Origin: Microbacterium salitolerans
Lineage (GTDB): Bacteria; Actinomycetota; Actinomycetes; Actinomycetales; Microbacteriaceae
Assembly (NCBI RefSeq): GCF_019720895.1
Contig: NZ_JAHKSH010000001.1
Location: 558,001-622,000 of the forward strand
DNA length: 64,000 bases
Reading direction: 5' to 3'
Part shown: positions 4,459 through 26,400 of the stretch, piece after piece
Layout: the number at the start of each line of letters is the position of its first letter
How positions within the stretch are numbered: position 1 is the stretch's first letter
The notes under the pieces: generated by a model
The model's input: the letters and a program-made list of their open reading frames with translations, nothing else
The model's database searches: none
What the model was told of the DNA's origin: nothing
Program-made: the position numbers and the translations under genes

Positions 4459-4510
4459 CACGGCAGCTCGGATCCCCGGGCGCTCTTCAACGGCGAAAGA
4501 GGTGGCGCAC

Positions 4511-6034
4511 ATGCGTCGACGGATCACAGCAGTCGCGGTGGGAGCCGCCGCGGCACTCGCACTGACGGCCTGCTCCGGCGGATCCACGGGCGGCGGGTCG
4601 ACAGCCGGCGGATCCACGGAGGGCGGCAGCCTGCGCATCGGCGCGGTCGTCGACGTCACGACGTGGGATCCCGGCGAGGGGGCGTGGGGCAACGAGGCCC
4701 TGTACTTCCAGTCGGTCTACGACACGCTGCTGCGCATGAGCGCCGACGGCGAGATCGAGCCCGGGCTGGCCGAGACGTGGGAGTACGACGACAGCCGCAC
4801 GACGCTGACGCTCGACCTGCGCGACGGCGTCACGTTCTCGGACGGCGAGGAGCTCACGGCCGAGGCGGCCGCCGAGAGCGTCCTCGCCTACCGCGATGGG
4901 GCCGCTCCCAACGCGGGGTACCTCTCGGACGTCGAATCGGTCGAGGCCGCCGACGAGAACACGGTCGAGATCCGCCTCTCGCAGCCGAATCCCGCGCTCG
5001 AGGCCTATCTCACGCAGAACGCGGGCGTCGTCGGATCCCCGTCGGCAGCCGACCCGGCGACCACGCCCGTCGGGTCCGGTCCGTACGTGCTCGACCTCGA
5101 CGCGTCGATTCCCGGATCCCGCTACGAGCTCACGGCGCGTGAGGACTACTGGGACGAGTCCGTCCAGCACTACGACGCGATCACCATCAACTTCTACGCC
5201 GACGCGACGGCGACGCAGAACGCCCTGCGCGACAACCAGGTCGACTACTCGAACCTGAACAGCGTCTCGCAGCTGCCCGACGCCGAGGCGGCTGGGTACA
5301 CGGCCCATCACGCCCCGGTGAACTGGAAGGGCTTCATCCTCTCCGACCGCGAGGGAACCGTGAATGAGGCGCTCGGCGAGGTGAAGGTGCGGCAGGCGTT
5401 CAACTACGCGCTCGACCGCGAGGCGCTGCTCGAGGCGATCGAGAGCGGTCACGGCGAGCCGACGACGCAGATCTTCGGCATCGAGACCGCCGCCTACGAC
5501 GAGTCCCTCGAGGACCGCTACCCGTACGACCCCGAGAAGGCGAAGGAGCTGCTCGCCGAGGCCGGCTACCCGGACGGCGTCGAGATCGTGCAGCCGCAGA
5601 CGAGCTTCACCCCGGCGTCCGACTACGAGCTCGTCTCGGACATGCTCGCGGAGTCGAACATCGAGATGGTCGCCGACCAGGTCGGATCCACCTTCATCGG
5701 CGATCTGCTCGGCGGCAAATGGGGCGCGTTCCAGTTCGGCCTCAATCAGGAGCCCCTGGCCTGGCAGACGTATCAGCTGGCGGTCGCCCCGGACGCGGCG
5801 TGGAATGTTCAGCACGTCGTCGACCCGACCGTCGAGGAGCTCGCCGAGCGCATGCGCCACGGCGGGGACGACGCCGATGCGGCGGCGCAGGAGCTGAACG
5901 AGCACCTCGTCGAGCAGGCCTGGTTCGCCCCGATCTACCGCGTCGACGGCGTGATCGTCACGGGTGAGGGCACCACGGCCACGCAGAAGGTCGGCGAGGC
6001 CGTGCCGAACCTCTGGGACATCCTTCCCGAGTGA
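4511..6034 (+). CDS. ABC transporter substrate-binding lipoprotein (SBP_bac_5 family)
   Basis: This 507-residue extracellular binding protein has a signal peptide ending in a lipobox (LTAC) and a Gly/Ser-rich tether (about residues 20-43). The body has the oligopeptide/nickel-type family 5 pattern, such as GLAETWEYDD and VTFSDGEELTAEAAAESV in the first 120 residues and VRQAFNYALDREALLEAI near the middle. Family 5 proteins bind peptides, nickel or oligosaccharides. The start at 4511 is preferred over a GTG at 4502 because AGAGG lies 8 nt before it. It heads an operon with two permease modules, two ATPase modules and glycosidases, so the likely ligand is a glycoside or oligosaccharide rather than a peptide. 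That is inferred from context. Confidence 0.88.
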   Translation: MRRRITAVAVGAAAALALTACSGGSTGGGSTAGGSTEGGSLRIGAVVDVTTWDPGEGAWGNEALYFQSVYDTLLRMSADGEIEPGLAETWEYDDSRTTLTLDLRDGVTFSDGEELTAEAAAESVLAYRDGAAPNAGYLSDVESVEAADENTVEIRLSQPNPALEAYLTQNAGVVGSPSAADPATTPVGSGPYVLDLDASIPGSRYELTAREDYWDESVQHYDAITINFYADATATQNALRDNQVDYSNLNSVSQLPDAEAAGYTAHHAPVNWKGFILSDREGTVNEALGEVKVRQAFNYALDREALLEAIESGHGEPTTQIFGIETAAYDESLEDRYPYDPEKAKELLAEAGYPDGVEIVQPQTSFTPASDYELVSDMLAESNIEMVADQVGSTFIGDLLGGKWGAFQFGLNQEPLAWQTYQLAVAPDAAWNVQHVVDPTVEELAERMRHGGDDADAAAQELNEHLVEQAWFAPIYRVDGVIVTGEGTTATQKVGEAVPNLWDILPE

Positions 6035-6043
6035 TCGACCGGC

Positions 6044-6070
6044 AGGTGGGGCGCGATCTGCGCCCCACCT
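6044..6070 (+). promoter_or_regulatory. Intercistronic stem-loop after the binding-protein gene
   Basis: An 11-bp perfect stem (6044-6054 with 6060-6070, 5-nt loop) lies between the binding-protein and permease genes. Such structures often stabilise the upstream message and lower expression of permease genes; that role is inferred. Confidence 0.5.
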
Positions 6071-6090
6071 CCTCCGACGAAGGCTGAGAC

Positions 6091-7032
6091 ATGCTGAGAT
6101 TCCTCCTCCAGCGGATCGCGTCCGGCGCGGTGCTGCTGATCGCGCTGGCGGTGCTGGCGTACTTCCTGCTCCGGATGGGCACCGCCGACATCGCCCAGCA
6201 GATCGCCGGGCAGACCGCCGGACCCGAGCAGGTCGCGCTCATCGAGGAGCGCTTCGGCCTCGATCGTCCCCTGCTCGAGCAGTTCGCGATCTGGGCCGGG
6301 TCGGTCTTCGCAGATGACATGGGCCGGTCGTGGTTCACCGGCCAGCCCGTCGGCGCGACGGTCTTCGGACGCACGGGCGTCACCGTCACACTCGCGATCG
6401 GATCCGTGCTGCTCACGGGCGTCTTCGGCGTGATCCTGGGCGTCGTCGCCGCCACGCGTCGTGGCGCCCTCGACCGCGTCGTGCAGATCCTCGCGGTGCT
6501 CGGCCAGGCGATCCCCGGGTTCCTCATCGCCGTCGGCCTCGTGCTGCTGTTCGCGGTGCGACTGGGCTGGTTCCCGGCGACGGGCTACACGCCGATCGGC
6601 GACTCCGTCACGGGGTGGCTGCAGTCGATCACCCTGCCGATCCTCGCGCTCGCCCTCGGGTCCGTCGGCGGCGTGGCGCAGCAGGTGCGCGGATCCGTGC
6701 TCGACGTGCTCGGTCGTGATCACGTGCGCACGCTGCGCAGCCGCGGACTGCCGGAGAACCGCGTCGTGTACCGCTACGTCCTGCGCAATGCGGGAGGGCC
6801 CGCGCTCAGCGTGCTCGGTCTGCAGTTCGTCATCATCCTGTCGGCGTCCGTCGTCGTCGAGCAGGTCTTCTCGATCCCGGGCCTCGGCCCCATCGCCCTC
6901 ACGAGCACGATGCAGGGCGACGTGCCGCTCGTCATGGGCATCGTCCTCGTCATGGGCGCGATGGTCATCGTCGTGAACCTCCTCGTCGACCTGCTGCAGG
7001 GCGTCATCAACCCGAAGGTGAGGCTGTCATGA
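6091..7032 (+). CDS. ABC transporter permease, DppB type
   Basis: This 313-residue inner-membrane permease has the DppB/OppB layout: a first membrane helix at about 9-29, a periplasmic loop containing ERFGLDRPLLEQF, and five more helices. The cytoplasmic EAA-type loop appears around DHVRTLRSRGLPENRVVYRY. It should form the channel together with the permease half of the next protein. Its stop codon overlaps the next start (ATGA), so the two are translationally coupled. Nothing in the sequence identifies the substrate. Confidence 0.9.
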   Translation: MLRFLLQRIASGAVLLIALAVLAYFLLRMGTADIAQQIAGQTAGPEQVALIEERFGLDRPLLEQFAIWAGSVFADDMGRSWFTGQPVGATVFGRTGVTVTLAIGSVLLTGVFGVILGVVAATRRGALDRVVQILAVLGQAIPGFLIAVGLVLLFAVRLGWFPATGYTPIGDSVTGWLQSITLPILALALGSVGGVAQQVRGSVLDVLGRDHVRTLRSRGLPENRVVYRYVLRNAGGPALSVLGLQFVIILSASVVVEQVFSIPGLGPIALTSTMQGDVPLVMGIVLVMGAMVIVVNLLVDLLQGVINPKVRLS

Positions 7033-8789
7033 CGACGACCCTCGTCACCACGATCGCCCGCAGGGGCGGCCGCGATCACGTCTTCGCGCGCCTCGTGCGC
7101 CACCCGCTGGGCGCGCCCTCGATCCTCTTCCTCGCGCTCGTCGCGGTCGTGGCGGTCGCCGCGCCGTGGCTCGTCCCGATGGATCCCACCGCCACCGACG
7201 TGCAGAACGTGTTCGGCCCTCCCGGAGACGGTCACCCGCTCGGCACCGACAGCGCGGGCCGCGACGTGCTGTCGCGGCTCATCATCGGCACGACCTACTC
7301 GCTCGCCGGCGGCCTCGTCGTCGCGATCGTCGCGGCCGTGATCGGCGTGACGGGCGGTCTCATCGCCGGCTACTTCAGCGGGTGGACCGACACCGCCGCG
7401 TCCTGGCTGACGTCGCTCACGATGTCGCTGCCGGGCATGGTCGTCCTGCTCGCGGCGCGCGCCGCGTTCGGCCCATCCATGTGGCTGACGATGGCGCTGT
7501 TCGGCGCGATCATCTCGCCCACCTACTACCGCGTCGTCTACAACTCCGTGCGGGCCGTGCGCAACGAGCTGTTCATCGACGCGGCGCGCACGAGCGGGCT
7601 CACGACTCCGGCCATCATCGGCCGCCACGTGCTGACGGCCGTGCGCGCCCCGATCATCCTCCTCACCTCCGGCATCATCGCGGGCGGCATCGGCATGATG
7701 GCCGCGCTCGACTTCCTCGGCCTCGGCTCGCCCGACACCCCGACCTGGGGTCAGATGCTCAGCGAGGGCTTCTATCAGCTGACCCGGGCGCCCCAGCTCG
7801 TGCTCTGGCCCGCCCTCGCTCTCGGACTCACGATGATCGCGCTCGTCCTGCTCGGCACGGCCCTGCGCGACGAGCTCGAGGGATCGCATGGATCCGCGAA
7901 GGGCGCCCGCACGGCCTGGCACGCCGAGCGCGCGCCCGAGAAGGCGATCGCCCACGACGACGGCCAGGGGGATCCGATCCTCGAGATCGCGGATCTCGCC
8001 GTCGCCTACCCGGGCGACGAGGGCTGGAAGACCGTGGTCCACGATGCGAACCTCACGGTGCGCCGCGGCGAGGTGCACGGCCTCATCGGCGAATCGGGAT
8101 CCGGTAAGTCGCAGACGGCGTTCGCCGTGCTCGGGCTGCTCGCGACGGGCGGTCGGGTGGTGCACGGATCCATCCGCTTCGACGGGCAGGACGTCGCATC
8201 GCTCTCGCCCCGCGACATGAACCGGCTGCGCGGATCGCGCATCGCGTACGTGCCGCAGGAGCCGATGTCGAACCTGGACCCCGCCTTCACGGTCGGCGAC
8301 CAGTTCACGGATCCGCTCCGCATCGTCCACGGCATGTCGAAGGCCGAGGCGAAGAAGAAGGCCCTCGACCTGCTCGCCACGGTCGGGATCCCGGATCCCG
8401 AGCGCACCTTCCGCGCGTATCCGCATCAGCTCTCGGGCGGCATGGCGCAGCGCGTGCTCATCGCGGCGGCCGTCGCGACGGAGCCCGACCTGCTCATCGC
8501 CGACGAGCCCACGACGGCCCTCGACGTGACGGTGCAGGCCGAGGTGCTGGATCTGCTGCGCGATCTCCGCGAGGCGATCGGCATGTCGGTCCTCATCGTC
8601 ACCCACAGCTTCGGCGTCGTCGCCGACGTCTGCGACCACGTCTCGGTGATGCAGCACGGCGCGATCGTCGAGACCGGCCCGTGCCGCAGCGTGTTCGCGG
8701 ATCCGCGCCACGAGTACACCCAGCGTCTGTTCGCGTCCGTCCCTCGGGGCGAGCCGCGCGGGAGCCTGAGAGAGGGGACGGCCTCATGA
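7029..8789 (+). CDS. Fused ABC permease (DppC type) and ATPase (DppD type)
   Basis: This 586-residue protein joins two usually separate subunits. Residues about 1-285 are a DppC-like permease (GHPLGTDSAGRDVLSRL, then a LDFLGLGSPDTPTWGQML segment). After a charged linker at about 286-312, residues 313-586 are an ATPase with Walker A GESGSGKS (354-361), signature LSGGM (about 468) and Walker B LLIADEP (about 490). The C-terminal region keeps the oligopeptide-transporter tail pattern HEYTQRLFASVP. The fusion fixes a 1:1 ratio of permease and ATPase. Both ends overlap neighbouring genes by 4 nt (ATGA). Similar fusions are known in actinobacteria, so this is probably a stable architecture and not a sequencing error. 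Confidence 0.9.
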   Translation: MTTTLVTTIARRGGRDHVFARLVRHPLGAPSILFLALVAVVAVAAPWLVPMDPTATDVQNVFGPPGDGHPLGTDSAGRDVLSRLIIGTTYSLAGGLVVAIVAAVIGVTGGLIAGYFSGWTDTAASWLTSLTMSLPGMVVLLAARAAFGPSMWLTMALFGAIISPTYYRVVYNSVRAVRNELFIDAARTSGLTTPAIIGRHVLTAVRAPIILLTSGIIAGGIGMMAALDFLGLGSPDTPTWGQMLSEGFYQLTRAPQLVLWPALALGLTMIALVLLGTALRDELEGSHGSAKGARTAWHAERAPEKAIAHDDGQGDPILEIADLAVAYPGDEGWKTVVHDANLTVRRGEVHGLIGESGSGKSQTAFAVLGLLATGGRVVHGSIRFDGQDVASLSPRDMNRLRGSRIAYVPQEPMSNLDPAFTVGDQFTDPLRIVHGMSKAEAKKKALDLLATVGIPDPERTFRAYPHQLSGGMAQRVLIAAAVATEPDLLIADEPTTALDVTVQAEVLDLLRDLREAIGMSVLIVTHSFGVVADVCDHVSVMQHGAIVETGPCRSVFADPRHEYTQRLFASVPRGEPRGSLREGTAS

Positions 8790-9610
8790 GCCTTCTCGAG
8801 ATCGCCGACCTCGTCGTCGAGTACCCCGGCCGCGGATTCCGTGCGAAGCCCTTCCGCGCCGTGCAGGGGGTGTCGCTCGACATCCGCGCAGGTGAGACGG
8901 TCGGGCTCGTCGGCGAGTCCGGATCGGGCAAATCGACGATCGGCCGCGCGATCCTCGGGCTCGCGCCCGTCACGTCCGGCACGATCTCCTACGCGGGCGA
9001 GGACATCAGCCACCCGACGCCCGCGAGGCGCCGCGAGCTGACGCGCGACCTGCAGGTCGTGTTCCAGGATCCGTACTCGTCGCTGGATCCCACCATGACG
9101 ATCGGCGACATCCTCACCGAGCCGCTCATCGCGCGCCGGACGCCGAAAGCCGCCGCCCAGACCCGCGTGCGAGAGCTCCTCGACGTGGTGCAGCTGCCGT
9201 CCGACACGATCGAGCGGCGTCCGCGCGACTTCTCGGGCGGGCAGCGGCAGCGCGTCGCGATCGCCCGCGCGCTCGCGCTCGATCCGAAGCTCATCGTCGC
9301 CGACGAACCCGTCTCGGCGCTCGACCTGTCGACGCAGGCCCGCGTGCTCGAGCTGTTCACCGAGATCCAGGAGCGCACGGGCGTCGCCTACCTGTTCGTC
9401 TCGCACGACCTCGCCGTCGTGCGCGAGATGGCGCATCGCGTCGCGGTCATGCGCCGCGGCGAGATCGTCGAGTTCGGCGACGGCGATGCCGTCACGAGCC
9501 ATCCGCAGCATCCCTACACGCAGCGACTGCTGCTGTCGTCTCCCGTGCCCGACCCCGTGGCACAGGAGAAGCGCCGGACCGCGCGCAGGGCACTTCAAGG
9601 AGAGACATGA
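8786..9610 (+). CDS. ABC transporter ATP-binding protein, DppF type
   Basis: This 274-residue ATPase is the second nucleotide-binding subunit of the importer. It has Walker A GESGSGKST (about residues 46-54), a Q-loop at VFQDPYSSLDP, signature FSGGQ, Walker B LIVADEP and an H-loop in FVSHDLAVV. The C-terminus has the family tail HPYTQRLLLSSP. The start at 8786 was chosen because ATGA overlaps the preceding stop and GAGGGG lies 7 nt upstream; the 35-residue upstream extension is out of context. It overlaps the next gene by 4 nt as well. Confidence 0.92.
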   Translation: MSLLEIADLVVEYPGRGFRAKPFRAVQGVSLDIRAGETVGLVGESGSGKSTIGRAILGLAPVTSGTISYAGEDISHPTPARRRELTRDLQVVFQDPYSSLDPTMTIGDILTEPLIARRTPKAAAQTRVRELLDVVQLPSDTIERRPRDFSGGQRQRVAIARALALDPKLIVADEPVSALDLSTQARVLELFTEIQERTGVAYLFVSHDLAVVREMAHRVAVMRRGEIVEFGDGDAVTSHPQHPYTQRLLLSSPVPDPVAQEKRRTARRALQGET

Positions 9611-10833
9611 CCTTCCCCAAGGACTTCTACTGGGGCGTCGCGAGCGCCGGCCACCAGAACGAGGGCGACAACTCCCACAGCGACATCTGGACCCTTGAGC
9701 ACACGGATCCCACGCTGTTCCGCGAGCCGAGCGGATCCGCCTGCCGCGCCTACGACATGTGGGAGACCGACCTCGATATCGTGCGCGACATGGGGCTGAA
9801 CGCCTACCGGTTCAGCGTCGAGTGGGCGCGCATCGAGCCGACGCGCGGCGCCATCGACACCGCCGCCCTCGACCACTACGAGCAGGTCGTCGACGGCGCG
9901 CTCGAGCGCGGCATCACGCCCCTCATCACGTTCTGCCACTTCGCGGCGCCGCACTGGTTCGCGGCGTCGGGATCCTGGATCGGCCCCGAGGCGCCCGACC
10001 TGTTCGCGGCGCACTGCGACCGCGTCATGGAGCGCATCGGCGACCGGATCGGCGCGGGGATCACCCTCAACGAGCCGAACCTCGAGCAGGTGCTGCAGTC
10101 GCTCGGACACATGCCGCCGGAGGTCGAGACGCAGAAGAAGGCGATGCTCGCGCAGGCGGCGAAGGACGCCGGCAGCGACTTCTACTACGCGGCGAACATC
10201 ATCCCCGCCGACGATCAGGAGCTGCTGCGCGACGGCTTCCTCCGTGCGCACCGTGCAGGGAAGCAGGCGATCAAGGCCCGCCGCGCCGACCTGCCCGTGG
10301 GCATCTCGATCGCGATCGGCGACGAGATCGCGATGGCGGGCGGCGAGGAGCGCCGTGACGCCAAGCGCGAGAAGGTCTATGACTTCTGGCTGCGCGAGGC
10401 CCGGAACGATGACTTCATCGGCGTGCAGAACTACGAGCGCGTCTGGCACGGACCCGACGGCGAGGTGTTCCCCGAGGGCCCGCGCAACGGCATGGGCACC
10501 GTCATCTCGCACGCGTCCGTCGCGGGTGCGGCGCGCTACGCGCACGACGTGTCGGGGGTGCCGGTGCTCGTGAGCGAGCACGGGATCCAGTCCGACGACG
10601 ACGCCGTCCGCGCCGACTTCATCCCCGCCGCGCTGGCCGAGCTCGCGCTCGAGGTCGACCGCGGCACGCCGATCTTCGGCTACTGCCACTGGACCCTGAT
10701 GGACAACTTCGAGTGGATCTTCGGCTACGGAGCCAAGCTCGGACTCGTCGAGGTCGACCGCGAGACGTTCCAGCGCACCCCGAAGCCCAGCGCCGGCGTC
10801 TACGCCGACGCCGTGCGCCGATACCGTTCGTGA
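9607..10833 (+). CDS. Family 1 glycoside hydrolase (beta-glucosidase-like)
   Basis: This 408-residue cytoplasmic enzyme (no signal peptide) belongs to GH1. It starts with the family pattern FYWGVASAGHQNEG, has the acid/base Glu156 in TLNEPN and the nucleophile Glu324 in LVSEHG (most members have TENG), and ends with the conserved WTLMDNFEWIFGYG and GLVEVD blocks. GH1 enzymes are retaining beta-glycosidases. At 408 residues it is shorter than the usual 440-470. It overlaps the ATPase gene and is followed by an esterase and an alpha-L-rhamnosidase, so it probably removes a beta-linked glucose from an imported glycoside after or before the rhamnose is cut off. Exact sugar specificity cannot be read from the sequence. 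Confidence 0.88.
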   Translation: MTFPKDFYWGVASAGHQNEGDNSHSDIWTLEHTDPTLFREPSGSACRAYDMWETDLDIVRDMGLNAYRFSVEWARIEPTRGAIDTAALDHYEQVVDGALERGITPLITFCHFAAPHWFAASGSWIGPEAPDLFAAHCDRVMERIGDRIGAGITLNEPNLEQVLQSLGHMPPEVETQKKAMLAQAAKDAGSDFYYAANIIPADDQELLRDGFLRAHRAGKQAIKARRADLPVGISIAIGDEIAMAGGEERRDAKREKVYDFWLREARNDDFIGVQNYERVWHGPDGEVFPEGPRNGMGTVISHASVAGAARYAHDVSGVPVLVSEHGIQSDDDAVRADFIPAALAELALEVDRGTPIFGYCHWTLMDNFEWIFGYGAKLGLVEVDRETFQRTPKPSAGVYADAVRRYRS

Positions 10834-10834
10834 C

Positions 10835-11776
10835 ATGAAGGTCGAACGGATCCCGCTGCGCGACGGGCGCGACGACGTCACGCTGACCACCTATGTGCTC
10901 GATGACTCGGGGGAGATGCTCGACGGGTCCCCGCGGCCCGCCGTGCTGATCCTGCCGGGCGGCGCGTACCTCACCTGCTCCGACCGCGAAGGCGAGCCCG
11001 TCGCGCTCGCCTTCGCATCGCTCGGGTACCACGCGTTCGTGCTGCGCTATTCGGTGTACGGCGATGCGGATCCGATGCAGGACCTCGAGCCGCGCGAGCG
11101 CTCGCAGTTCCCGCACCCGCTCGTCGACGTGGGTCTCGCGATGCGCGAGATCCGCGATCGGGCGGAGGAGTGGCGTGTGGATCCCTCCCGCATCGTCGTG
11201 TGCGGGTTCTCGGCCGGCGGCCACAACGCCGCGATGTACGGCACGCACTGGGACAAGCCGGTCATCACCGACGCGGTCGGCGAGGGGCTGCGGCCGGGCG
11301 CGCTCATCGTGAGCTACGCGATCACCGACTACGTCGACGTCGCCGAGCGCGCCCGCGAACAGGGTGCCGTCGAGCAGGCGATCCGTCGCGCCGCGGCTGT
11401 CGCCTACCTCGGTACGACGGAGCCCGGCCACGACGCGCTCATCGCCGCGAGCCCGGCGCTCCTCGCCGACGAGAGCACTCCGCCGTCGTTCATCTGGGCG
11501 ACCGGCGCCGACTCGCTCGTCCCCGCTCGCCACAGCCTGAGATTCGCGGCGCGTCTCGCCGACGTCGGCGTGCCGTATGAGCTGCACGTGTACGAGCAGG
11601 GCCGCCACGGCCTGTCGCTCGCGACGCAGGCGAGCGCCGGCTCCCGCGGCGACCTCGACTCCCGCGCGGCCGACTGGTTCCGGCAGGCGTCGTCGTGGCT
11701 GGAGGCGCGCTTCGCCCTCGACGTCCCCGAGCTCTCCGCCTGGGAGCGCCGACCCCTCCGAGAGGACCCCCGATGA
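10835..11776 (+). CDS. Alpha/beta-hydrolase, carbohydrate-esterase-like
   Basis: This 313-residue cytoplasmic hydrolase has an oxyanion motif PGGAY (41-45), nucleophile Ser126 in GFSAGG, and plausible acid and base residues Asp226 (TGADS) and His258 (GRHG). The pattern matches the BD-FAE / acetyl-xylan-esterase-like group of the alpha/beta-hydrolase superfamily. It starts 1 nt after the GH1 stop and overlaps the GH78 gene. In this operon a likely job is removal of acetyl or other acyl groups from the glycoside before the glycosidases act. A lipase or peptidase role is less likely from context. Confidence 0.78.
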   Translation: MKVERIPLRDGRDDVTLTTYVLDDSGEMLDGSPRPAVLILPGGAYLTCSDREGEPVALAFASLGYHAFVLRYSVYGDADPMQDLEPRERSQFPHPLVDVGLAMREIRDRAEEWRVDPSRIVVCGFSAGGHNAAMYGTHWDKPVITDAVGEGLRPGALIVSYAITDYVDVAERAREQGAVEQAIRRAAAVAYLGTTEPGHDALIAASPALLADESTPPSFIWATGADSLVPARHSLRFAARLADVGVPYELHVYEQGRHGLSLATQASAGSRGDLDSRAADWFRQASSWLEARFALDVPELSAWERRPLREDPR

Positions 11777-16873: not shown

Positions 16874-16887
16874 TCCGGCGCGTTCGC

Positions 16888-16939: not shown

Positions 16940-16970
16940 GGGGATCCGTGCGCCGGTCGCGCGTGTTCGC

Positions 16971-17022: not shown

Positions 17023-17075
17023 TGGTGCCGCCGCTCGTCGTCTGACGCGTCCGGCCCTTCCCCCGAGGCGTCACC

Positions 17076-18125: not shown

Positions 18126-18160
18126 GGTCCCAGGCTACGGGGCGCCCATGCGTCCGAAGC

Positions 18161-18229
18161 CACGCAGTCGATCCGTTCGGGAGGGGGCGGAGCAGTCGGA
18201 TTCGGCCCCTCGGATCGCCGATTCGACTG
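18161..18229. repeat. GACTGCGT-family degenerate inverted repeat
   Basis: CACGCAGTCGAT at 18161-18172 and ATTCGACTG at 18221-18229 are complementary core segments, with a further AGCAGTCGGATT in the loop. It lies between divergent ltaE and the end of the GNAT gene. Confidence 0.5.
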
Positions 18230-18247
18230 AGCCGTGTCGCGCCGACC

Positions 18248-18742: not shown

Positions 18743-18922
18743 GCGCGGATCGTATGGGGGTGCGGGCTCGATCACAACACACGTACGGCAGAACCGGCGA
18801 GCGGCGTGCGGATCCGCCGCTCGACACGGGTGCGCCGGCGAGATCTGCCGTCCTCCTGCACGCGTGACCCCGCGTGACGAGCCCGTGTGCGACGAGCCGA
18901 CCGCCCGACCTACGCTGGCGGG

Positions 18923-19444
18923 ATGACGGATCCGCGGTCTCAGGCGACGTATCAGGTGCGACTCGGATGGGGGGCCGATGCGCTCGACCTGCTCGAGCCG
19001 GCCGAGATCCTCGTCGTGGTCGACGCGATCGGGGCAGATGCCGCCCTCGCGCAGGCCGCCGCGGGACGGGCTGAGACGGTGTTCGCGGGCTCCCTGCGCA
19101 ACGCGACCGCGACGGCGCGGGCCGCGTACGACGCGCAGAAGGCGCGCGGCGGGCGCACGTCGATCGCGCTGATCCTCGCGGGCGACGGCGGTCGGTTCGC
19201 GGTCGAGGACTACCTCGCCGCCGGCGCGATCGCCGACGGGCTGAGCGCGCTCGGCATCGACCACACCGCCCCCGAAGTCGCCGTCGCCGGCGAGGGGTTC
19301 CACGGCCTGAAGCGCGCCCTCAAGCACCTGCTGTCAGCCAGCGCCACGGGGCTCGCGCTCGCCGCAGAGGGTCGTCGCGACGAGGTCAGAGCCGCGGCCG
19401 AGCTCGACGCCGAGCCGGAAGCGCACCTCCTCACCGCGAGCTGA
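18923..19444 (+). CDS. ComB-like (2-phosphosulfolactate phosphatase family) protein
   Basis: This 173-residue protein shows the pattern of the ComB family: VRLGWGADALDLLEPAEILVVVDAIG near the start, a GSLRNATATARAAYD segment, IALILAGDGGRFAVEDYLAAGAI in the middle and GLKRALKHLLSASATGLALA near the end. ComB of methanogens removes phosphate from 2-phosphosulfolactate, but actinobacterial members are widespread in species without coenzyme M, so the real substrate is unknown. It is at the short end for the family (often 220 or more). TACGCT lies 6 nt before the ATG, indicating a leaderless message. Confidence 0.6.
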   Translation: MTDPRSQATYQVRLGWGADALDLLEPAEILVVVDAIGADAALAQAAAGRAETVFAGSLRNATATARAAYDAQKARGGRTSIALILAGDGGRFAVEDYLAAGAIADGLSALGIDHTAPEVAVAGEGFHGLKRALKHLLSASATGLALAAEGRRDEVRAAAELDAEPEAHLLTAS

Positions 19445-19479
19445 CGCGCGCCCGACGCCCTCACGCCCCACCTGCAGCG

Positions 19480-19935
19480 GTGCGCGCCTGCGCGCAGGCG
19501 TGCGCCCCTGAGGGTCCCTGGGGTCGGATCTCTCCTGACCTATGCGCATCTCCTCGCAGAGGCACGGGTGGTGTGCGTGCCCGTGGGCAAGCGCGCTCGC
19601 GCGCCGCCGTGCATTCCTGAGGAGATGTGCGCTCCTGAGGATCCCTGACCCCGGATCCCTCCTCATCTGTGCGCATCTCCTCGCGGCGGCACGGGCGGTT
19701 TGGGGTCCCGGGGGGCACGCGTGCCTTGGTGTCGGCGTGCGCAGCCGTGCGTTCGTGAGGAGATGTGCGTTCCTGAGGACCCTTGGTCCCGGATCCGTCC
19801 TCCTCTGTGCGCATGTCCTCGTGGCGGCACGGGTGGTTTGCGCGCTCGCGCGCCGCCGTGCGCCCCTGAGGAGATGCGCGTTCCCGAGGAACCATTGCCC
19901 CGGATCCCTCCCCATCCGTGCACTTCTCCGCACGG
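19480..19935. repeat. Tandem repeat array, about 3.5 units of 111-138 bp, each able to fold into a hairpin (family C)
   Basis: Units begin with TGCGCATCTCCTCG at 19543, TGCGCATCTCCTCG at 19670, TGCGCATGTCCTCG at 19808 and a degenerate TGCACTTCTCCGC at 19919, with a partial unit before 19543. In each full unit this arm is complementary to a later GAGGAGATGTGCG-type arm, enclosing a GC-rich loop with GGCACGGGTGG and GCGCCGCCGTG, and each ends with a GGATCC-containing stretch. The array fills the whole gap between the ComB-like and SprT-like genes. Unit length and spacer variation do not fit CRISPR. Confidence 0.75.
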
Positions 19936-19943
19936 GGGCGGCG

Positions 19944-20435
19944 TCAGTCGCGCGGTGCCTGCGCCGCCAGGCGGTCGGCGCGGGTGATCTCGCGGCGGTG
20001 CCACTCGAACACGAAGCGCGGATCGAACCGCCGAGCGCAGGTGACACAGGACGACGCGCGCGTCGGCCGTCGGTGCCGGTACACGGTGTGGCCGTTGGGG
20101 CAGGTGCCGACCCAGGGGGCGAGCTCGGTGGCGGTCTCGCCGTGGTGGGTCGTACCGCCGACGTAGCCGATGTCGCGGGCGATGCGCTTCCACTCGGGTC
20201 CGTGGCCGGCGGCCGCCCCTGCGACGGCGTGCGCGACCTCGTGCAGCAGCGTCTGGTGGTTGTCGTCGTCGCTGAAGCGGGCCGCGAGGTAGCGCGAGAG
20301 CGAGATGCGCCTGTTTGTGTAGTTGCACAGGCCCGCGCGGCGCTTCGCGTTGTCGAATCCGAAGGTCCAGCTGTCGTCGAGGTGCATGCGGATGAGGGCG
20401 TGCGCCCATACCCTCACGCGATCCAGATCCGACAC
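19944..20435 (-). CDS. SprT-like zinc metalloprotease-domain protein
   Basis: This 163-residue protein has the zinc-binding active site HEVAH (His65, Glu66, His69) with a third ligand candidate His78, as in the SprT/Spartan family. A C-terminal zinc ribbon is seen (CPNGH, then CVTC). SprT-like proteins are implicated in DNA-protein crosslink processing in other organisms; the bacterial role is not established. The start is GTG at 20435, 6 nt after TAGCCT (minus strand, 20447-20442), so leaderless. Downstream of it lies the family-C repeat array. Confidence 0.78.
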   Translation of the reverse strand: MSDLDRVRVWAHALIRMHLDDSWTFGFDNAKRRAGLCNYTNRRISLSRYLAARFSDDDNHQTLLHEVAHAVAGAAAGHGPEWKRIARDIGYVGGTTHHGETATELAPWVGTCPNGHTVYRHRRPTRASSCVTCARRFDPRFVFEWHRREITRADRLAAQAPRD

Positions 20436-20530
20436 GGACCCAGGCTATGCCGAACCCCTGACATTCGACGAGCGCGCCTCACCCCGCCTTGCGAGCAGCC
20501 CGCGCCCCCCCCGCAAGGGGCCCGTCCCCG

Positions 20531-21724
20531 CTACCCTCGCGCCGCCCGCGTCGTCGCCGCGATCGCGAAGGCGGCGACGCTCATCGTGATTCCGCAGCCC
20601 ACGATGACGCGCGCGTCGATGATCCCGAGCATCGCGGCGCCTCCCGCGGTGATGAACACGGCGGGCAGCTGCAGCAGCATGTTGACGGTCGTGCCGACGC
20701 GACCCTGCAGCCGCGCGGGGGTCCGGATCTGCGACTCGGTGACGTACGCGATGACCGCCGCCGTCACCCCGAGCCCGATGACGGCGAGGCCGGCGCCCAT
20801 GAGCCACACGTCGTCGCCGAGCATCGGCGCGACGCCGACGGCCATGAGCAGCGCCCCGCCCGTCATGACGCGCACCCGCCCGAAGCGCGTCATGAGCAGC
20901 GCGCCGGTCAGTCCGGCGACGAGTCCGCCGAGCCCGATCATCGCCTCGAGCGGCCCCATCCACGCCGCCTCGACGCCCATGCGCTCGAGCACCGCGAATC
21001 CGACCGCGCTCGTGAAGGCGGCCGTGCTCGACAGCAGCATCAGCGACACCGTCAGGCGTCCGAGGGGAGCGGCCGTGAACAGGTGGCGGAAGCCGGCCGT
21101 GACCGAGCGCCAGAACGGATCCGGATCCTCCTCGACGGGCGACTCGGCGAACCGCAGGAGGGCGAACGCGAGGGCCGCGAGGGCGAAGGCGACGACCGCC
21201 GCTGCGACGATCGGAAGTGGGCCGGTCCACAGGTAGACGCCGGCCGCGACGAAGGGCAGGGTGAGCCGCAGCACCTGGTCGATCGACTGCAGCAGTGCGT
21301 TCGCCGGGCCGAGATCGTCGTCGCTCAGGAGGTCGCGCAGGATCCCGCCGCGGCATCCGGCGGTCGCGTACGACACGGCGGCGTAGACGACGACGCTCGC
21401 GTAGATGATCCAGAACTGCGACGGGTCCTGCACGAGGAAGAGCGGCACCAGGCCCGCCACCGCGACGGAGTACGACACGACGAGCATGCGGCGCCGCGAG
21501 ACGCGGTCGGCGAGCCGGCCGATCATCGGCGCGAACAGCGCGGGCACGCCGAACAGCGCGAAGGTGAGGGCGCCGAGCGCCGCGCTGGCCGTGAGCTCGG
21601 CGACCCACACGCCGAGGATGACCATGAGCAGCGAATCGGCGACGTTCGCCAGCGCCCAGCCGGCCACGACGCCCGCGAAGAGGCGGCTGCGGAGGCGGAC
21701 CTTCTCCGGCGCGACCGCGGTCAT
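20531..21724 (-). CDS. Major facilitator superfamily exporter
   Basis: This 397-residue integral membrane protein has about 12 transmembrane helices and the MFS loop motif GRLADRVSRRRML between helices 2 and 3. The layout fits drug-exporter-type MFS proteins (MFS_1/MFS_3). It starts at 21724, overlapping the stop codon of the ArsR-like regulator (ATGA), so the two are translationally coupled. The pairing suggests the regulator senses the exported compound, which is unknown. Confidence 0.82.
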   Translation of the reverse strand: MTAVAPEKVRLRSRLFAGVVAGWALANVADSLLMVILGVWVAELTASAALGALTFALFGVPALFAPMIGRLADRVSRRRMLVVSYSVAVAGLVPLFLVQDPSQFWIIYASVVVYAAVSYATAGCRGGILRDLLSDDDLGPANALLQSIDQVLRLTLPFVAAGVYLWTGPLPIVAAAVVAFALAALAFALLRFAESPVEEDPDPFWRSVTAGFRHLFTAAPLGRLTVSLMLLSSTAAFTSAVGFAVLERMGVEAAWMGPLEAMIGLGGLVAGLTGALLMTRFGRVRVMTGGALLMAVGVAPMLGDDVWLMGAGLAVIGLGVTAAVIAYVTESQIRTPARLQGRVGTTVNMLLQLPAVFITAGGAAMLGIIDARVIVGCGITMSVAAFAIAATTRAARG

Positions 21725-22284
21725 GACGGCGGCCGCTCGCTCCAGAGTGCGGACAGGAAGCGCACGTGACGCGCGTCGGCGGGGCGCTTCGCCGGATCCG
21801 CCGCGCGGTCGGCGAATCGGTCGAGGACGTGATCGATCTCCTCGGCGACGGCGGACAGCTCCTCGCGCGTCGCCCAGAAGCCGGCGTGGCGCTGATGGGA
21901 GGAGTGGGTCCACTCGGGGTCGTCGTCGGCGGCCGTGTCCATCCAGCGATCGAGGCTGCGCACCGACTCGGCGAGGAGTGCTCGGCCGGCCGCGAAGGTC
22001 GCCGCCAGGCCCTCGGCGTCGCCGGGCTCTGCATCGATCGTGACGGTGCCCGCGATCGCCTTCCAGGGCTTCTCCCGCCCCCGTCGTTCGCCCGGCTCGA
22101 GGTATCCGTACATCGCCAGCTGGCGCAGGTGGAAGGAGCAGCTGGCGACCGACTCGCCTGTCGCCGTGGCCGCCTCCGTCGCGGTCATCTCGCGCCCGTC
22201 GCGGAACAGCTCGAGGAGCCGCACCCGGAGGGGATGCGTGAGGGCCTTGATCTGCTCGGTCTGCGTCACACGCCGTTCTGCCAT
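21721..22284 (-). CDS. ArsR-like winged-helix regulator of the MFS exporter
   Basis: This 187-residue protein has an N-terminal winged helix of the HTH_20/ArsR type (about residues 5-75; IKALTHPLRVRLLELFRDG, then TESVASCSFHLRQLAMYGYL-like recognition helix) and a C-terminal helical domain of about 110 residues without metal-binding Cys/His clusters. It probably represses its own operon with the MFS exporter. The upstream region is AT-rich and holds three CTTTAG half-sites (22301-22330), a candidate operator. Confidence 0.8.
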   Translation of the reverse strand: MAERRVTQTEQIKALTHPLRVRLLELFRDGREMTATEAATATGESVASCSFHLRQLAMYGYLEPGERRGREKPWKAIAGTVTIDAEPGDAEGLAATFAAGRALLAESVRSLDRWMDTAADDDPEWTHSSHQRHAGFWATREELSAVAEEIDHVLDRFADRAADPAKRPADARHVRFLSALWSERPPS

Positions 22285-22300
22285 GTCGGCAGTATGTATC

Positions 22301-22330
22301 CTAAAGAACCCTTTAGCAAGATATCTTTAG
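22301..22330. promoter_or_regulatory. Candidate operator of the ArsR-like/MFS operon
   Basis: CTAAAG (22301-22306) and CTTTAG (22311-22316) form a perfect 6-4-6 inverted repeat. A third CTTTAG follows at 22325-22330, overlapping the palindrome AAGATATCTT. Such AT-rich sequence is rare in this window. Confidence 0.5.
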
Positions 22331-22384
22331 AATCATGCGAGGCTGCGTCCGAGCGTGGTGCCGCGGCCCGAGCGGCGCCTCGCG

Positions 22385-22942
22385 TCAGCTCGCGAAGATG
22401 CCGCGGTCCGTGGAGCGCTTGCGCTCGGCGGCGTCGATGAAGTTCATCGTGACCTCGAGCTGCTCGTCGTCGGCGCCCAGCTCCTGGCGGAGGAAGAGCT
22501 CGCGCTTGAAATCGCTGCGCGCCCCGGCGTAGTCGCCCGCGTCGTAGCGCGTCTTGCCGCGGTGGCTGTGGGCGAGGGCGCTGATGCGCGGCCAGCTCTG
22601 GCCCTCGGCCTCTTCGATGCAGGTCGTGAGCTCGGCTTCGGCGCGCGAGAAGGATCCGCGTCGCTGGTTGACGGTGGCGTGGAGGATCCGCGCGTGCAGC
22701 AGATCCTTGCGGGTGCCTGACATGCGCGCAAGGCGCACGGCGTGCTCGGCGATCTGCAGGGCCTCGTCGATCTCGCCGAGGACCTTGAGGAGCCAGACCT
22801 GCTCGAGCTGTGCGGGGAAGCTGCGCTGCCGGCGCACCTCGACGAGTCGTTCGTAGACGCCCTCGCGGTCGACGATCTCCTGCAGGGTCTCGGGGTCGTA
22901 TCCCTGGATGAAGCCCACGCCGCGTCCCTTCGTCCGTACCAT
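22385..22942 (-). CDS. TPR-like helical repeat protein
   Basis: This 185-residue protein is built of paired helices with tetratricopeptide character, such as LLKVLGEIDEALQIAEHAVRLA, RRGSFSRAEAELTTCIEEA and RYDAGDYAGARSDFKRELFL, each ending in an acidic/alanine pattern. It probably mediates protein-protein contact. The start at 22942 was chosen over 22957 because GGGGAG lies 7 nt upstream. No functional partner is adjacent: the neighbours are an ArsR-like regulator and a spermidine-synthase-like protein. Confidence 0.6.
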   Translation of the reverse strand: MVRTKGRGVGFIQGYDPETLQEIVDREGVYERLVEVRRQRSFPAQLEQVWLLKVLGEIDEALQIAEHAVRLARMSGTRKDLLHARILHATVNQRRGSFSRAEAELTTCIEEAEGQSWPRISALAHSHRGKTRYDAGDYAGARSDFKRELFLRQELGADDEQLEVTMNFIDAAERKRSTDRGIFAS

Positions 22943-23024
22943 CGTGCGACTCCCCATCCTGCCTGGTCACGGCGAGGTAACGGAATCGGCGCGCGGATCC
23001 GTCGTGAAACGTCCGGCGGATCCG

Positions 23025-23891
23025 CTACGAGAACAGCGATGAAGAGGGGCGGGGCGAGTCCGTCGCGTCGTCGTCGGCGACGGGCAGCGCACCCGCGATG
23101 AAGGTGTCGACCTCGCGACCCTCCGCGACCTTCGCGGGGTGAGGGCCGGCGGCCATGAGGCGCGGCAGCCAGTCGGTCGGCAGCGGCTCCGCGGAGGCGG
23201 CGAAGACGAGGTTGCCGAAGCGGCGGCCCTTGAGCACCTGCACCTCCGCGAGGATCGCGACGTGCGGCAGCACCTCGCGGATCGTCGCGGCCTGGCGCCG
23301 CGCGAACGCGAGCCCGGATCCGTCGGCGACGTTCACGAGCAGGATCCCGCGCGGAGAGAGCAACGCCGCCGCTTCGCGATAGAACGAGGTCGTGGTGAGG
23401 TGCGCGGGTGTCTGCGCCCCCGAGTAGACGTCGCTGACGAGCAGGTCGACGGTTCCACGCAGCGACGCAGGCAGCCGGGCGAGGCCGGCCCGGGCGTCGC
23501 CGAAGCGCACGCGGATCTGCGCATCGCGGGGGAGGGGGAGATGCTCCCGCACGAGGTCGACGAGCGGCTGCTCGAGCTCCACGACCTGCTGGCGAGAGCC
23601 GGGGCGCGTGTGGGCGATGTAGCGCGGGAGGGTGAGGCCGCCGGCGCCGAGGTGCACCGCCGTGACCGGCCCGTCGGGCAGCTGATCGATGACGGCCCCC
23701 ATCCGCGCCACGTACTCGAACGCGAGATACGCGGGGTCGGCCAGGTCGACGTGCGACTGCGGGGTGCCGTCGATGATCACTTCGGACCCGGAGCCGAACT
23801 CGCTCGGCCTGATCTCGGCGTTCGCCCCCGAGGCGAGACGCGCCTGGGGGAAGTCGGTGTCCTTGCGGCGCTGCCTGCCCATGAGGTCCAT
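23025..23891 (-). CDS. Spermidine-synthase-like protein
   Basis: This 288-residue protein has the Rossmann-type methyltransferase fold of the spermidine synthase family: VTAVHLGAGGLTLPRYI (nucleotide-binding glycine loop), QVVELEQPLVDLVREH (acidic end of strand 2), IRVRFGDARAGL and LLVSDVYSGAQTPAHLTT. The active-site Asp and Tyr typical of true spermidine synthases are not clear, and many actinobacterial members are of unknown function. The start at 23891 is tentative; 23882 is an in-frame alternative. A family-B palindrome lies directly upstream. Confidence 0.7.
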   Translation of the reverse strand: MDLMGRQRRKDTDFPQARLASGANAEIRPSEFGSGSEVIIDGTPQSHVDLADPAYLAFEYVARMGAVIDQLPDGPVTAVHLGAGGLTLPRYIAHTRPGSRQQVVELEQPLVDLVREHLPLPRDAQIRVRFGDARAGLARLPASLRGTVDLLVSDVYSGAQTPAHLTTTSFYREAAALLSPRGILLVNVADGSGLAFARRQAATIREVLPHVAILAEVQVLKGRRFGNLVFAASAEPLPTDWLPRLMAAGPHPAKVAEGREVDTFIAGALPVADDDATDSPRPSSSLFS

Positions 23892-23915
23892 TCTGACGTG
23901 CCCCCGGTCGCTCAC

Positions 23916-23967
23916 GTGACGCGCGTAACCCTTCCCGCGGCGGGGAGGGGTCGTCGCCGTCACCCGA
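23916..23967. repeat. 52-nt palindromic intergenic element (family B), copy 5
   Basis: It starts GTGACGCGCGTAACCCTTCC and ends GTCGCCGTCACCCGA, as a single copy between the spermidine-synthase-like gene and benE. Confidence 0.7.
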
Positions 23968-24033
23968 GGGCGCGGATCCCCGGGGTGCGCCCTTCCCGCG
24001 CGCGGTCCCTCGCCCGCCCTCTAATCTGGCGGG

Positions 24034-25188
24034 ATGCACGCGCGCTCGACGACCCTCGCCGGCATCACCGCCGCGCTCGCCGGCTTCGCGAGTTCGTCCG
24101 CCGTCGTGCTCGCGGGGCTCACGGCGGTCGGAGCGACGCCGATGCAGGCGGCGTCCGGCCTCGTCGCGCTCTGCATCGTGCAGGCGCTCGCGATGCTGTG
24201 GCTGTCGGCGCGCACGCGGATCCCGGTCCTCATCGCCTGGTCGACCCCCGGCGCCGCGCTGCTCGCGTCGAGCGCCGTCCCCGAGGGTGGCTTCGCGGCC
24301 GCGATCGGGGCGTTCCTCGTCACGGCCGCGCTGATCGTGCTGACGGGCCTGTGGCCGCTGCTGTCGAAGGCCGTCGCGGCGATCCCCGCACCCATCGCGC
24401 AGGCGATGCTCGCGGGGGTGCTCGTCGGCCTCTGTCTCGCGCCCGTGCGCGGCGTCGTCGATGATCCCGTCGCGATCCTGCCGATCGTCGTCGTCTGGCT
24501 CGTGCTCATGCGGTTCGCCGCGACCTGGGCGGCTCCCGCCGCATTCGCCGTCGGGCTCGGGATCCTCGGCGTCCAGGCGGTCGGCTCCGGCGGCGTCGAG
24601 GGGCGGATCCTCCCGGTGCTCGAGATCGTGCCCCCGACCTTCTCCTGGGGTGCGATCGTCGGGCTCGCGCTGCCCCTGTACGTGGTGACGATGGCGTCGC
24701 AGAACGTGCCGGGCTCCGCGATCCTCTCGTCGTACGGGTATCGCGTCCCGTGGCGTCACGCGATGACGGTCACGGGGCTCGGCACGGCGGTCGCCGCGCC
24801 GTTCGGCGGCCACGCGATCAATCTCGGCGCCATCACTGCCGCCATCACGGCGGCGCCCGACGCGCACCCCGACCCCGCCGAGCGGTGGAAGGGCGTGCGA
24901 ACCGTCGGCATCGCCTACCTGGTGCTCGCGGTGCTCGCGACGGCGCTCACCACCCTCACCGCGGTGTCGCCCGGCGTGCTCGCGGCGGTCGCGGGGCTGG
25001 CGCTGATCCCCACGCTCGTGTCGTCGATCTCGGGCGCCATCGCCTCGCCGGAGGCCGGACATCGCACGGCCGCCGTCGTCACGTTCCTCGTGGGCGCGAG
25101 CGGCATCGCGGTGTGGGGGATCGGTTCGGCGTTCTGGGCGCTCGCCGCGGGGCTCGTCGTCTACGGCGTCCTCGCCTGGCGGCGGTGA
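24034..25188 (+). CDS. benE: BenE-family benzoate/proton symporter-like membrane protein
   Basis: This 384-residue protein has about 11-12 hydrophobic helices and the BenE family signatures LIAWSTPGAALL near helix 3 and VTMASQNVPG in the middle, with FGGHAINLGAITAAI downstream. BenE proteins move benzoate or similar aromatic acids with protons. No aromatic-degradation genes lie nearby, so the substrate is uncertain. TAATCT lies 6 nt before the ATG, giving a leaderless transcript. Confidence 0.85.
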   Translation: MHARSTTLAGITAALAGFASSSAVVLAGLTAVGATPMQAASGLVALCIVQALAMLWLSARTRIPVLIAWSTPGAALLASSAVPEGGFAAAIGAFLVTAALIVLTGLWPLLSKAVAAIPAPIAQAMLAGVLVGLCLAPVRGVVDDPVAILPIVVVWLVLMRFAATWAAPAAFAVGLGILGVQAVGSGGVEGRILPVLEIVPPTFSWGAIVGLALPLYVVTMASQNVPGSAILSSYGYRVPWRHAMTVTGLGTAVAAPFGGHAINLGAITAAITAAPDAHPDPAERWKGVRTVGIAYLVLAVLATALTTLTAVSPGVLAAVAGLALIPTLVSSISGAIASPEAGHRTAAVVTFLVGASGIAVWGIGSAFWALAAGLVVYGVLAWRR

Positions 25189-25205
25189 CCCCCCCCGCCG
25201 CCGAG

Positions 25206-25235
25206 GTGACGGTCGTGACCATCTCCGCGTCTGAG
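25206..25235. repeat. Truncated family-B element
   Basis: GTGACGGTCGTGACCATC followed by a short TCTGAGG end: the left half plus the outermost right end of the 52-nt element. It opens a 309-bp gene-free stretch that holds only repeats. Confidence 0.45.
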
Positions 25236-25263
25236 GTGCTGGATCCGCCCGCTCGGCCTTCAC

Positions 25264-25315
25264 GTGACGCTCGTGCCCCTTCGTGCGGTGCGGAAGGTTC
25301 ATAGGCGTCATCTGA
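25264..25315. repeat. 52-nt palindromic intergenic element (family B), copy 6
   Basis: It starts GTGACGCTCGTGCCCCTTCG and ends ATAGGCGTCATCTGA. Confidence 0.7.
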
Positions 25316-25346
25316 GGGACCGCACCCTCGTGGCCGCGTCATTCGG

Positions 25347-25398
25347 GTGACGCGTGTGACGCTCAGCGCGGTGCTGAAGGGTCGACGGCGTCACCTGA
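25347..25398. repeat. 52-nt palindromic intergenic element (family B), copy 7
   Basis: It starts GTGACGCGTGTGACGCTC and ends GACGGCGTCACCTGA, 83 nt after copy 6, the same period as the two other dimers. Confidence 0.7.
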
Positions 25399-25417
25399 GG
25401 AGCCGGATCCACCCGAA

Positions 25418-25470
25418 GTGGCGCTCGTGACCCTTTCCAGCCGACCACGGCCCGCAGGGGTCACTCGGGA
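25418..25470. repeat. Family-B element, divergent copy 8
   Basis: It starts GTGGCGCTCGTGACCCTTTC and ends GGGGTCACTCGGGA, 71 nt after copy 7. It ends 28 nt before the stop of the next gene on the opposite strand. Confidence 0.6.
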
Positions 25471-25497
25471 AGGCGCCGGATCCGCCGTCCCTCGTAC

Positions 25498-26400
25498 TCA
25501 GCGCGCCGTGAAGCGGCCCGACGCGGTGAGGCGCCCGTGCGACGCGTCGATCGACAGGTCGGCGACGCGCAGGTCGTCGTCGCCGATCCGCTCCGTCCGA
25601 CCCGCGAGCTCGCGCAGACGCGGCCGCAGCGGCAGGATCAGCAGCTTGGTCAGGAGGTTGCGACTCGCGGCGGTGGCGCGGTGGATCGTGATCGTGCCGT
25701 CGCGGCCGGCCTCGACGTCGAGGCCGACGCGCACGGACATCGGCAGGAACCAGGCTCTCCCCGCCGCGCCGACCGTGAGCACGAAGCGCTGCTCGCTCGT
25801 GGGGCGCACCGCGAGCTTGAGGCGGCTCAGCGATGCGAGCCAGCCCATCCCCTGCTTCATCGCGGGGGCGACGATCGAGAACACGAGGTCGGCGAGGTCC
25901 TCCTGGCGCATCGAGAAGCGGAAGTCGCCCGCCGTGCGCGCATCGGACGCGTGCCCCAGGTCGAAGGTGCCGAGCAGCGCGTCGCCCTTCCGGACGACGA
26001 CCCAGTCGATCGGCGCCTTCGAGATGGTCGCGGATGCCCGGACCTCGTAGCCGTTCACGGTGACGGGATCCGCGCGGAAGCGCTTCTCTCCCAGGGTGCC
26101 GGTGGTGCGCGAGACGACCTCGTCGCGGGCGGGAGAGGGGATCCACGTCGCGTCGTCCTGCGCGAGCTTCGCCCCGTCGATGGTGACCTCGGCGCCCGTG
26201 AGGTCGGCGGAGACGCGCTCGAGGTCGGCCCGACGCGTGAAGGCCGACGAGCTCACGGTCACGCCGGGAGCCGCGTTCCAGCGCACGGACACGCCCGACT
26301 GCTCGGCGCGCGAGAGGAGCTGCACCACGCCCGTCTTGACGGTGGTGCCCGAAGCGGGCCAGGCTTTCGCGCTCGACAGGTGCCAGGGCCAACGATCCAT
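25498..26400 (-). CDS. Conserved hypothetical protein, possibly lipid-binding
   Basis: I do not recognise this 300-residue protein with certainty. It starts without a signal peptide, is rich in beta-type segments (VTVSSSAFTRRADLERVSAD, AEVTIDGAKLA, VTVNGYEVRASATI) and ends with a strand-rich region (DDLRVADLSIDASHGRL). This resembles, loosely, the tubular lipid-binding DUF2993/LmeA group, but the match is weak. TACGCT (minus strand, 26412-26407) is 6 nt before the ATG, so the message should be leaderless; the longer frame to 26493 was rejected for that reason. It is divergent from rpoB. Confidence 0.55.
   Translation of the reverse strand: MDRWPWHLSSAKAWPASGTTVKTGVVQLLSRAEQSGVSVRWNAAPGVTVSSSAFTRRADLERVSADLTGAEVTIDGAKLAQDDATWIPSPARDEVVSRTTGTLGEKRFRADPVTVNGYEVRASATISKAPIDWVVVRKGDALLGTFDLGHASDARTAGDFRFSMRQEDLADLVFSIVAPAMKQGMGWLASLSRLKLAVRPTSEQRFVLTVGAAGRAWFLPMSVRVGLDVEAGRDGTITIHRATAASRNLLTKLLILPLRPRLRELAGRTERIGDDDLRVADLSIDASHGRLTASGRFTAR

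Follow-up and report, generated by a model that had tools for sequence, protein, structure and literature searches.

Iteration of GGATCC across the window and the genome

By counting words exactly in 64,000 bases of the Microbacterium salitolerans genome (the window, 1..64000), we found 154 copies of the palindrome GGATCC, where 89 are predicted by a maximal-order Markov model and 17 by an order-2 one whose background had the word masked. The GGATCC-dense part of the window (4470..26443, no strand assigned) holds 80 copies, starting from 4470 to 26438. Within 4,470-26,400 there are 79, that is one per 278 bp, compared to a spacing of ~2,960 bp expected for independent bases at 70% GC (guanine plus cytosine). 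Two groups of copies had been counted by eye in an earlier note on this DNA, and both counts were exact. First, seven copies (in 4,470-5,684) lie inside and just upstream of a solute-binding protein gene (PF00496; 4470..5689, no strand assigned). Second, 13 copies (in 7,890-9,970) are spread across an ABC-transporter gene (7029-8789), the next gene (8786-9610, not scanned against Pfam) and the start of a GH1 gene (from 9607), a feature at 7890..9975 also without assigned strand.

The whole genome (G000; 3,457,863 bases) contains 6,614 GGATCC, or 1,913/Mb. For gene-level counts we used a sample of 624 kb, made of the window plus 28 20-kb stretches, with 517 genes called that cover 84% of it. 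This sample is skewed (2,211/Mb compared to 1,913/Mb genome-wide), more than half of it coming from the GGATCC-rich contig of the window, and the count per 20 kb ranges from 25 to 66 across the 28 stretches. Densities were 2,186/Mb in coding and 2,349/Mb in intergenic DNA. In the 517 genes the word occurs in all three reading frames, as had been proposed, with 481 copies as GGA|TCC, 331 as xGG|ATC|C and 340 as G|GAT|CC. The proposal that it is also intergenic holds as well, but its extension to terminators is not supported: we detected two terminator-like sites in 4,000-23,900, compared to 2.5 expected from shuffled sequence, and GGATCC is absent from the hairpins that were printed. Spacing is near random (coefficient of variation (CV) 1.04-1.11) with a slight surplus of short distances, and no clear trend was seen over deciles of position within genes. 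On contig C1 of another GGATCC-rich genome, G342, density declines away from dnaA (rho -0.66, 18 stretches). A general origin-to-terminus gradient was nevertheless rejected, because 20 stretches each of G613 (rho -0.08) and G034 (rho -0.26, p 0.26) showed no such trend.

Further along the window, the word is scarce in genes of transcription and translation. rpoB and rpoC (26621..34098, forward strand), taken as presumably highly expressed contrast genes, hold one copy each, and rpsL, rpsG, fusA and tuf (37922..42322, forward strand) hold 0, 0, 1 and 0, respectively, which confirms by exact count what had been noted for rpoB, rpoC and tuf. The two copies in rpoB and rpoC compare to 16.1 expected at the mean coding density of the sample (Poisson P 1.5e-5), and all six genes together hold three. 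Ten further rpoB sequences from the GGATCC-rich clade of the genus described below (two of them identical) carry 0 to 2 copies each. When we sorted 500 genes by codon adaptation, the 5% best adapted (n=25) were poorer, with 1.29 GGATCC/kb compared to 1.93-2.60 in the other classes, but an overall link to codon adaptation was rejected (rho -0.04).

The excess goes beyond codon usage and base composition

By shuffling synonymous codons within genes, we obtained 249 expected GGATCC against 1,152 observed (observed/expected ratio (O/E) 4.62, z 70). A second shuffle that preserved the codon junctions, keeping the same neighbouring bases, gave 357 expected (O/E 3.23, z 53). This null is conservative because its codon counts are already inflated by GGATCC itself. 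Enrichment was found in every phase, 2.5-11.4 fold with the within-gene shuffle and 2.5-4.3 fold with junction bases kept. GGATCC is the most over-represented palindromic hexamer of G000; among the six top-scoring palindromes printed for each null, the runner-up reached an O/E of 1.77 in the within-gene shuffle, and the next palindromes with more than 10 copies at most 1.21 in the junction-preserving one. The rare codons that the word requires are strongly raised where they can complete it, as had been suggested: the Gly codon is GGA in 54.6% of cases before Ser (n=1,058) compared to 9.8% before other residues (n=14,513), and the Asp codon is GAT in 57.3% before Pro (n=847) compared to 15.1% before other residues (n=10,785). 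Finally, the intergenic DNA of four GGATCC-rich genomes (273 kb pooled) contained 618 GGATCC compared to 132 expected (order-2 Markov, word masked).

A bias in codon pairs, base composition or a dispersed longer repeat could have produced a similar count, and the raw excess of Gly-Ser pairs does go in that direction. However, the codon-aware O/E of 3.2-4.6 (codon shuffles standing in for a third-order Markov model) is far from 1, all phases are enriched rather than a single Gly-Ser or Asp-Pro frame, intergenic O/E is about 5, and the bases flanking GGATCC are nearly independent of each other. We therefore consider this explanation refuted, with a negligible chance of being right. Thus, the earlier suggestion that selection or mutation bias acts on the DNA word itself is supported by the codon-aware O/E and the enrichment in all phases, and the excess is almost certainly real and genome-wide.

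The favoured unit is the exact hexamer

The left neighbour of GGATCC in G000 is mostly C (749/1,380), and the two outer flanking bases are nearly independent (chi2 17.6, 9 degrees of freedom, p 0.04). In the 273 kb of intergenic DNA, the nine one-step neighbours of GGATCC were present at 0.78-1.46 of expectation, therefore the perfect word alone is strongly raised. Likewise, CGATCG, AGATCT and TGATCA were not raised (0.59-1.10 of expectation, codon null, four high genomes). An apparent depletion of GGATCG and other one-off words under the maximal-order Markov model was set aside, since its margin is inflated by GGATCC itself, and so was a depletion of neighbours under the four-genome codon null, for the same reason. 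The favoured unit is thus the exact double-stranded hexamer, rather than any reading frame, codon pair or longer repeat.

GGATCC abundance comes and goes between related species

We surveyed the genus, the family and the phylum, computing densities from genome sizes rounded to 0.1 Mb. The rpoB of G000 shares 91% identity with its counterpart in Microbacterium sorbitolivorans CGMCC 1.15228. Among 367 genomes of the genus, 22 exceeded 1,500 GGATCC/Mb (hereafter high genomes), 5 were at 650-1,010 and the other 340 did not exceed about 582; none fell between 1,010 and 1,540, which makes the trait bimodal. In the family sample (299 genomes), all six genomes of genus g35 were high (1,732-1,956/Mb), and isolated species from other genera were intermediate or high, such as G151 with 1,411/Mb. 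Of 396 genomes drawn across the phylum, two exceeded 1,000/Mb, namely G000 and G164, which belong to the same genus. Under the codon null, O/E was 3.27 in G000, 3.47 in G342, 3.13 in G034 (g35) and 2.85 in G613, which belongs to a second clade of the genus, compared to 0.67 in the low relative G306. The enrichment of GGATCC is thus shared by g35 and two clades of the genus. In the four high genomes from these three groups, no other hexamer with an expectation of 15 copies or more ranked above it. In seven low loci of the Microbacterium group, pooled, we counted 35 GGATCC against 36.4 expected and found no comparable palindromic hexamer.

In the rpoB tree, G306 is nested within the high clade (support 90/98). 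This genome (loci L251, L252 and L263-L266) has 2.6 Mb, a GC content of 64%, a long rpoB branch and no GGATCC excess. Judging from its placement, G306 has apparently lost the excess, a case that brings to mind the loss of HIP1, the highly iterated palindrome (HIP) of cyanobacteria, in symbiotic species. In five comparisons, 0 to 8% of GGATCC sites were kept against G306. A common origin of the sites of clades A and B was tried and set aside, as 13 shared sites compared to 9.8 by chance (four overlapping tables) are too few to decide. Within its genus, then, GGATCC abundance comes and goes between related species.

Probable maintenance of GGATCC between high genomes

Next, we compared GGATCC sites between G406 and G451, a high genome that is very probably M. 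sorbitolivorans, with which it shares an identical rpoB. Among 160 gap-free sites (two gapped sites were excluded), 104 were identical, 13 had one difference and 43 had two or more. The flanks of the 104 identical sites were 82.5% identical, a level at which six independent bases would be kept together with a frequency of 0.31 (0.825^6). Moreover, 36 of 50 conserved Gly-Ser pairs are spelled GGATCC in each of the two genomes. Three control palindromes behaved differently in the way they are lost, with single changes dominating for GAGCTC (38 kept, 20 with one and 1 with more differences), GTCGAC (65/17/10) and CTCGAG (46/9/2). A two-step difference such as GGATCC to GGGTCG or CGACCC possibly corresponds to two synonymous changes. 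We infer that one-base differences are scarce because GGA and GAT are disfavoured alone and favoured only within the word. Together, these data suggest that maintenance very probably acts on the exact GGATCC word.

Likeness to highly iterated palindromes and other iterated words

HIP1 (GCGATCGC) had been named as the best-known analogue. In the available part of PMC4390886, HIP1 is described as a GATC-centred palindrome of cyanobacteria, present in coding and non-coding DNA, the top word of its genomes and lost in some lineages, traits that GGATCC shares; the same text treats why HIP1 exists as an open question. The analogy holds for the behaviour of the HIP class, but not for the word: HIP1 proper is the octamer GCGATCGC in a cyanobacterium, and the word here is the hexamer GGATCC with nearly independent flanks, in an actinobacterium (Actinomycetota) with no MutS found and no methyltransferase whose presence matches abundance. 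Against the broad HIP class (Elhai 2015), we found a palindrome far above oligomers of the same size, GGATCC being the top hexamer; a density of 1,913/Mb, within the 500-2,500/Mb of the class and comparable to the about 1,000-2,000/Mb given for HIPs in PMC4390886; occurrence in genes, whatever the frame, as well as between them; and, as to a methyltransferase recognizing part of the word, one PF01555 orphan in G000 as a candidate. According to the same source, alternative HIPs share a GC content of at least 75%, with one exception, a trait that is descriptive rather than defining; GGATCC has 67%. One of them, GGGATCCC, has GGATCC at its centre and dominates the octamers of Synechococcus JA-3-3Ab and JA-2-3B (PMC4390886). 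It includes an additional outer G and C, whereas here the left neighbour is mostly C. Hence, GGATCC is of the HIP kind in what it looks like, whether or not it also works as HIP1 does.

An unexplained genome-wide excess of GGATCC is described for subcluster B3 mycobacteriophages in PMC4841201. These have the same hexamer in actinobacterial phage DNA, with a weaker excess than here. In phage Phlyer, we counted 87 GGATCC compared to 48 expected (59 of 69 kb). We take Phlyer to be a B3 phage; its record says Pipefishvirus. In the Pipefishvirus phages Phlyer (L345, L346) and Yahalom (L350), GGATCC is in excess and GCCGGC, CCGCGG and GGCGCC are almost absent (0-1 each in Phlyer against about 63-95 expected), and both phages carry IbrA/IbrB-like genes at their left end. 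These genes were rejected as the agent, the IbrA-like-bearing Salgado having 0 GGATCC of 11.5 expected, Nebkiss 1 of 15.1 and a Bacillus phage 0 of 3.0. In Arthrobacter phage Salgado and the Bacillus phage (L347, L348), adjacent ParB-like, PAPS-reductase-like and methyltransferase genes have, by annotation only, the look of a DNA-modification module.

Among the open-literature matches listed, with subscription papers mostly outside, HIPs were described in cyanobacteria, and one report, that on the B3 mycobacteriophages, concerned an excess of the same hexamer. None of the matches listed described such an excess for the chromosome of Microbacterium or of another actinobacterium. The available sections of the main text of Blow et al. 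2016 (PMC4752239) do not mention GGATCC, and the palindromes of Caldithrix, as far as the available part of PMC5317091 goes, concern a longer repeat.

Finally, GGATCC could be a DNA uptake signal, or another protein-binding signal, unrelated to methylation and raised by uptake drive or by selection for binding. The uptake sequences of Haemophilus and Neisseria are short words found about once per kb in genes and spacers, specific to a lineage and tied to competence. GGATCC is similarly iterated over genes and spacers and lineage-specific, and its density, its presence in all frames and in intergenic DNA and its sporadic gain and loss are what such a signal would look like; the near-random spacing with a mild excess of short distances is compatible with it too. 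However, the known uptake sequences are longer than GGATCC and not palindromic, and we regard this alternative as rather unlikely.

A candidate methyltransferase and the search for MutS

To search for a GATC or GGATCC methyltransferase, as had been advised, we used the profile PF01555 and found one gene in G000, an orphan methyltransferase (contig C5:332745-333704; locus L113:1372-2337) flanked by a lipoate-ligase gene and a F420-dependent oxidoreductase gene. Searches with PF00145 and PF02086 gave no match in G000, type I and IIG families being outside the search. The protein has 321 residues with the motifs DPPF and FAGSGTTG. Among solved structures, its sequence is closest to M.RsrI and CcrM, so that a beta-class adenine enzyme is probable. 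We found orthologues in 335/367 genomes of the genus and, when 30 genera were sampled, in 27 of them, high and low alike. The enzyme is near-universal in Microbacteriaceae, and its C-terminal half is strongly conserved. A candidate thus exists, but its presence does not track density, and presence as a simple cause was rejected, the gene being absent in 7/29 genomes above ~575/Mb compared to 25/338 below, which is the wrong direction (12 of these 32 genomes were identified by elimination from the ortholog list). In the methyltransferase tree, which is a gene tree with low rows outside its change count, the high genomes fall into three clades, and low genomes separate the two clades that belong to the genus.

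Alternatively, this enzyme could have switched its specificity in the high lineages, with the word following. Residue 115 (G000 numbering) fits in part, since it is never Arg in 20 aligned high orthologues of the genus (9 T, 11 H) and is Arg in 24/32 low ones. However, these high orthologues represent two clades only and hence are not independent, the low genomes G306 (T), G435, G411 and G323 (H), G404 and G623 (S), G308 (K) and G325 (G) also lack Arg, the residue does not follow density outside the genus, and the presumed target-recognition region is nearly invariant among the rows listed. Failing outside the genus and in several low species, residue 115 was rejected as the switch, and we judge the switch itself improbable.

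In cyanobacteria, methylation-directed mismatch repair has been proposed to create and keep HIPs, ratcheting near-sites to perfect sites (Elhai), and in the available part of PMC4390886 this model explains HIPs that match a methyltransferase target. Here, MutS_V had no match in 19/20 genomes of the family, including ten high ones of the genus and two of g35 (MutL was not searched); a partial match was found in G126 only, and the Escherichia coli and Synechococcus controls were positive. Therefore, the published model cannot apply to this organism as written. In addition, the one-step neighbours of GGATCC are not depleted in intergenic DNA, and the presence of the sole candidate methyltransferase does not follow GGATCC density. 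Together, these data make mismatch repair a very improbable origin of the word.

Proposed weak selection on an iterated palindrome

Taking these observations together, we propose, with a probability of about 60%, that GGATCC belongs, in this actinobacterium, to the highly iterated palindromes of the HIP class and is kept by weak selection. In this view, a protein that binds or modifies DNA at a specific sequence would use GGATCC as its target, and each copy would be weakly favoured for that reason. A single copy would bring little advantage, since scaled selection of only about ln 5 matches a five-fold excess, and strong coding constraint may outweigh it. The agent could be the orphan beta-class methyltransferase conserved in the family, with abundance set by some second factor; it is a tentative candidate rather than the culprit, and its role is doubtful.

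Several observations weigh against selection on the word. First, the conservation of GGATCC contrasts only modestly with that of control palindromes between G451 and G406 (GTCGAC 71%, GAGCTC 64%, CTCGAG 81%), which also exceed their own flanks, although those flanks are better conserved than those of GGATCC. One-base and larger losses are about equal for CGATCG (50 kept, 20 one, 23 more) and GGCGCC (29/20/21), and the shortage of one-base differences is weaker between G000 and G342 (80/23/75, reverse 80/46/70) and between G000 and G164 (one and more differences 11/19, reverse 18/29). Second, the loss in G306 is not forced, because its branch is not starred, 6% of bootstrap trees unite the high group as one clade and its composition deviates, failing the composition test in the rpoB tree. 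Third, the methyltransferase was not found in 2/22 high genomes of the genus (both drafts), and G306 retains an 88% identical copy without GGATCC excess. Finally, biased gain (drive) on the exact word, rather than selection, may be at work.

More broadly, HIP-type palindromes might recur beyond cyanobacteria without MutS-type repair, GGATCC having risen separately in several lineages of Microbacteriaceae, being read by some protein and being lost when selection lapses; we consider this possible, at somewhat less than even odds. In these genomes, codon usage is partly dictated by a DNA word, as the choice of GGA before Ser and GAT before Pro illustrates. The genus offers related species with and without the word and an apparent loss within a high clade, in genomes where MutS was not found and type II-like methyltransferases are few. 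The cause of the iteration is therefore testable by comparison and gene removal.

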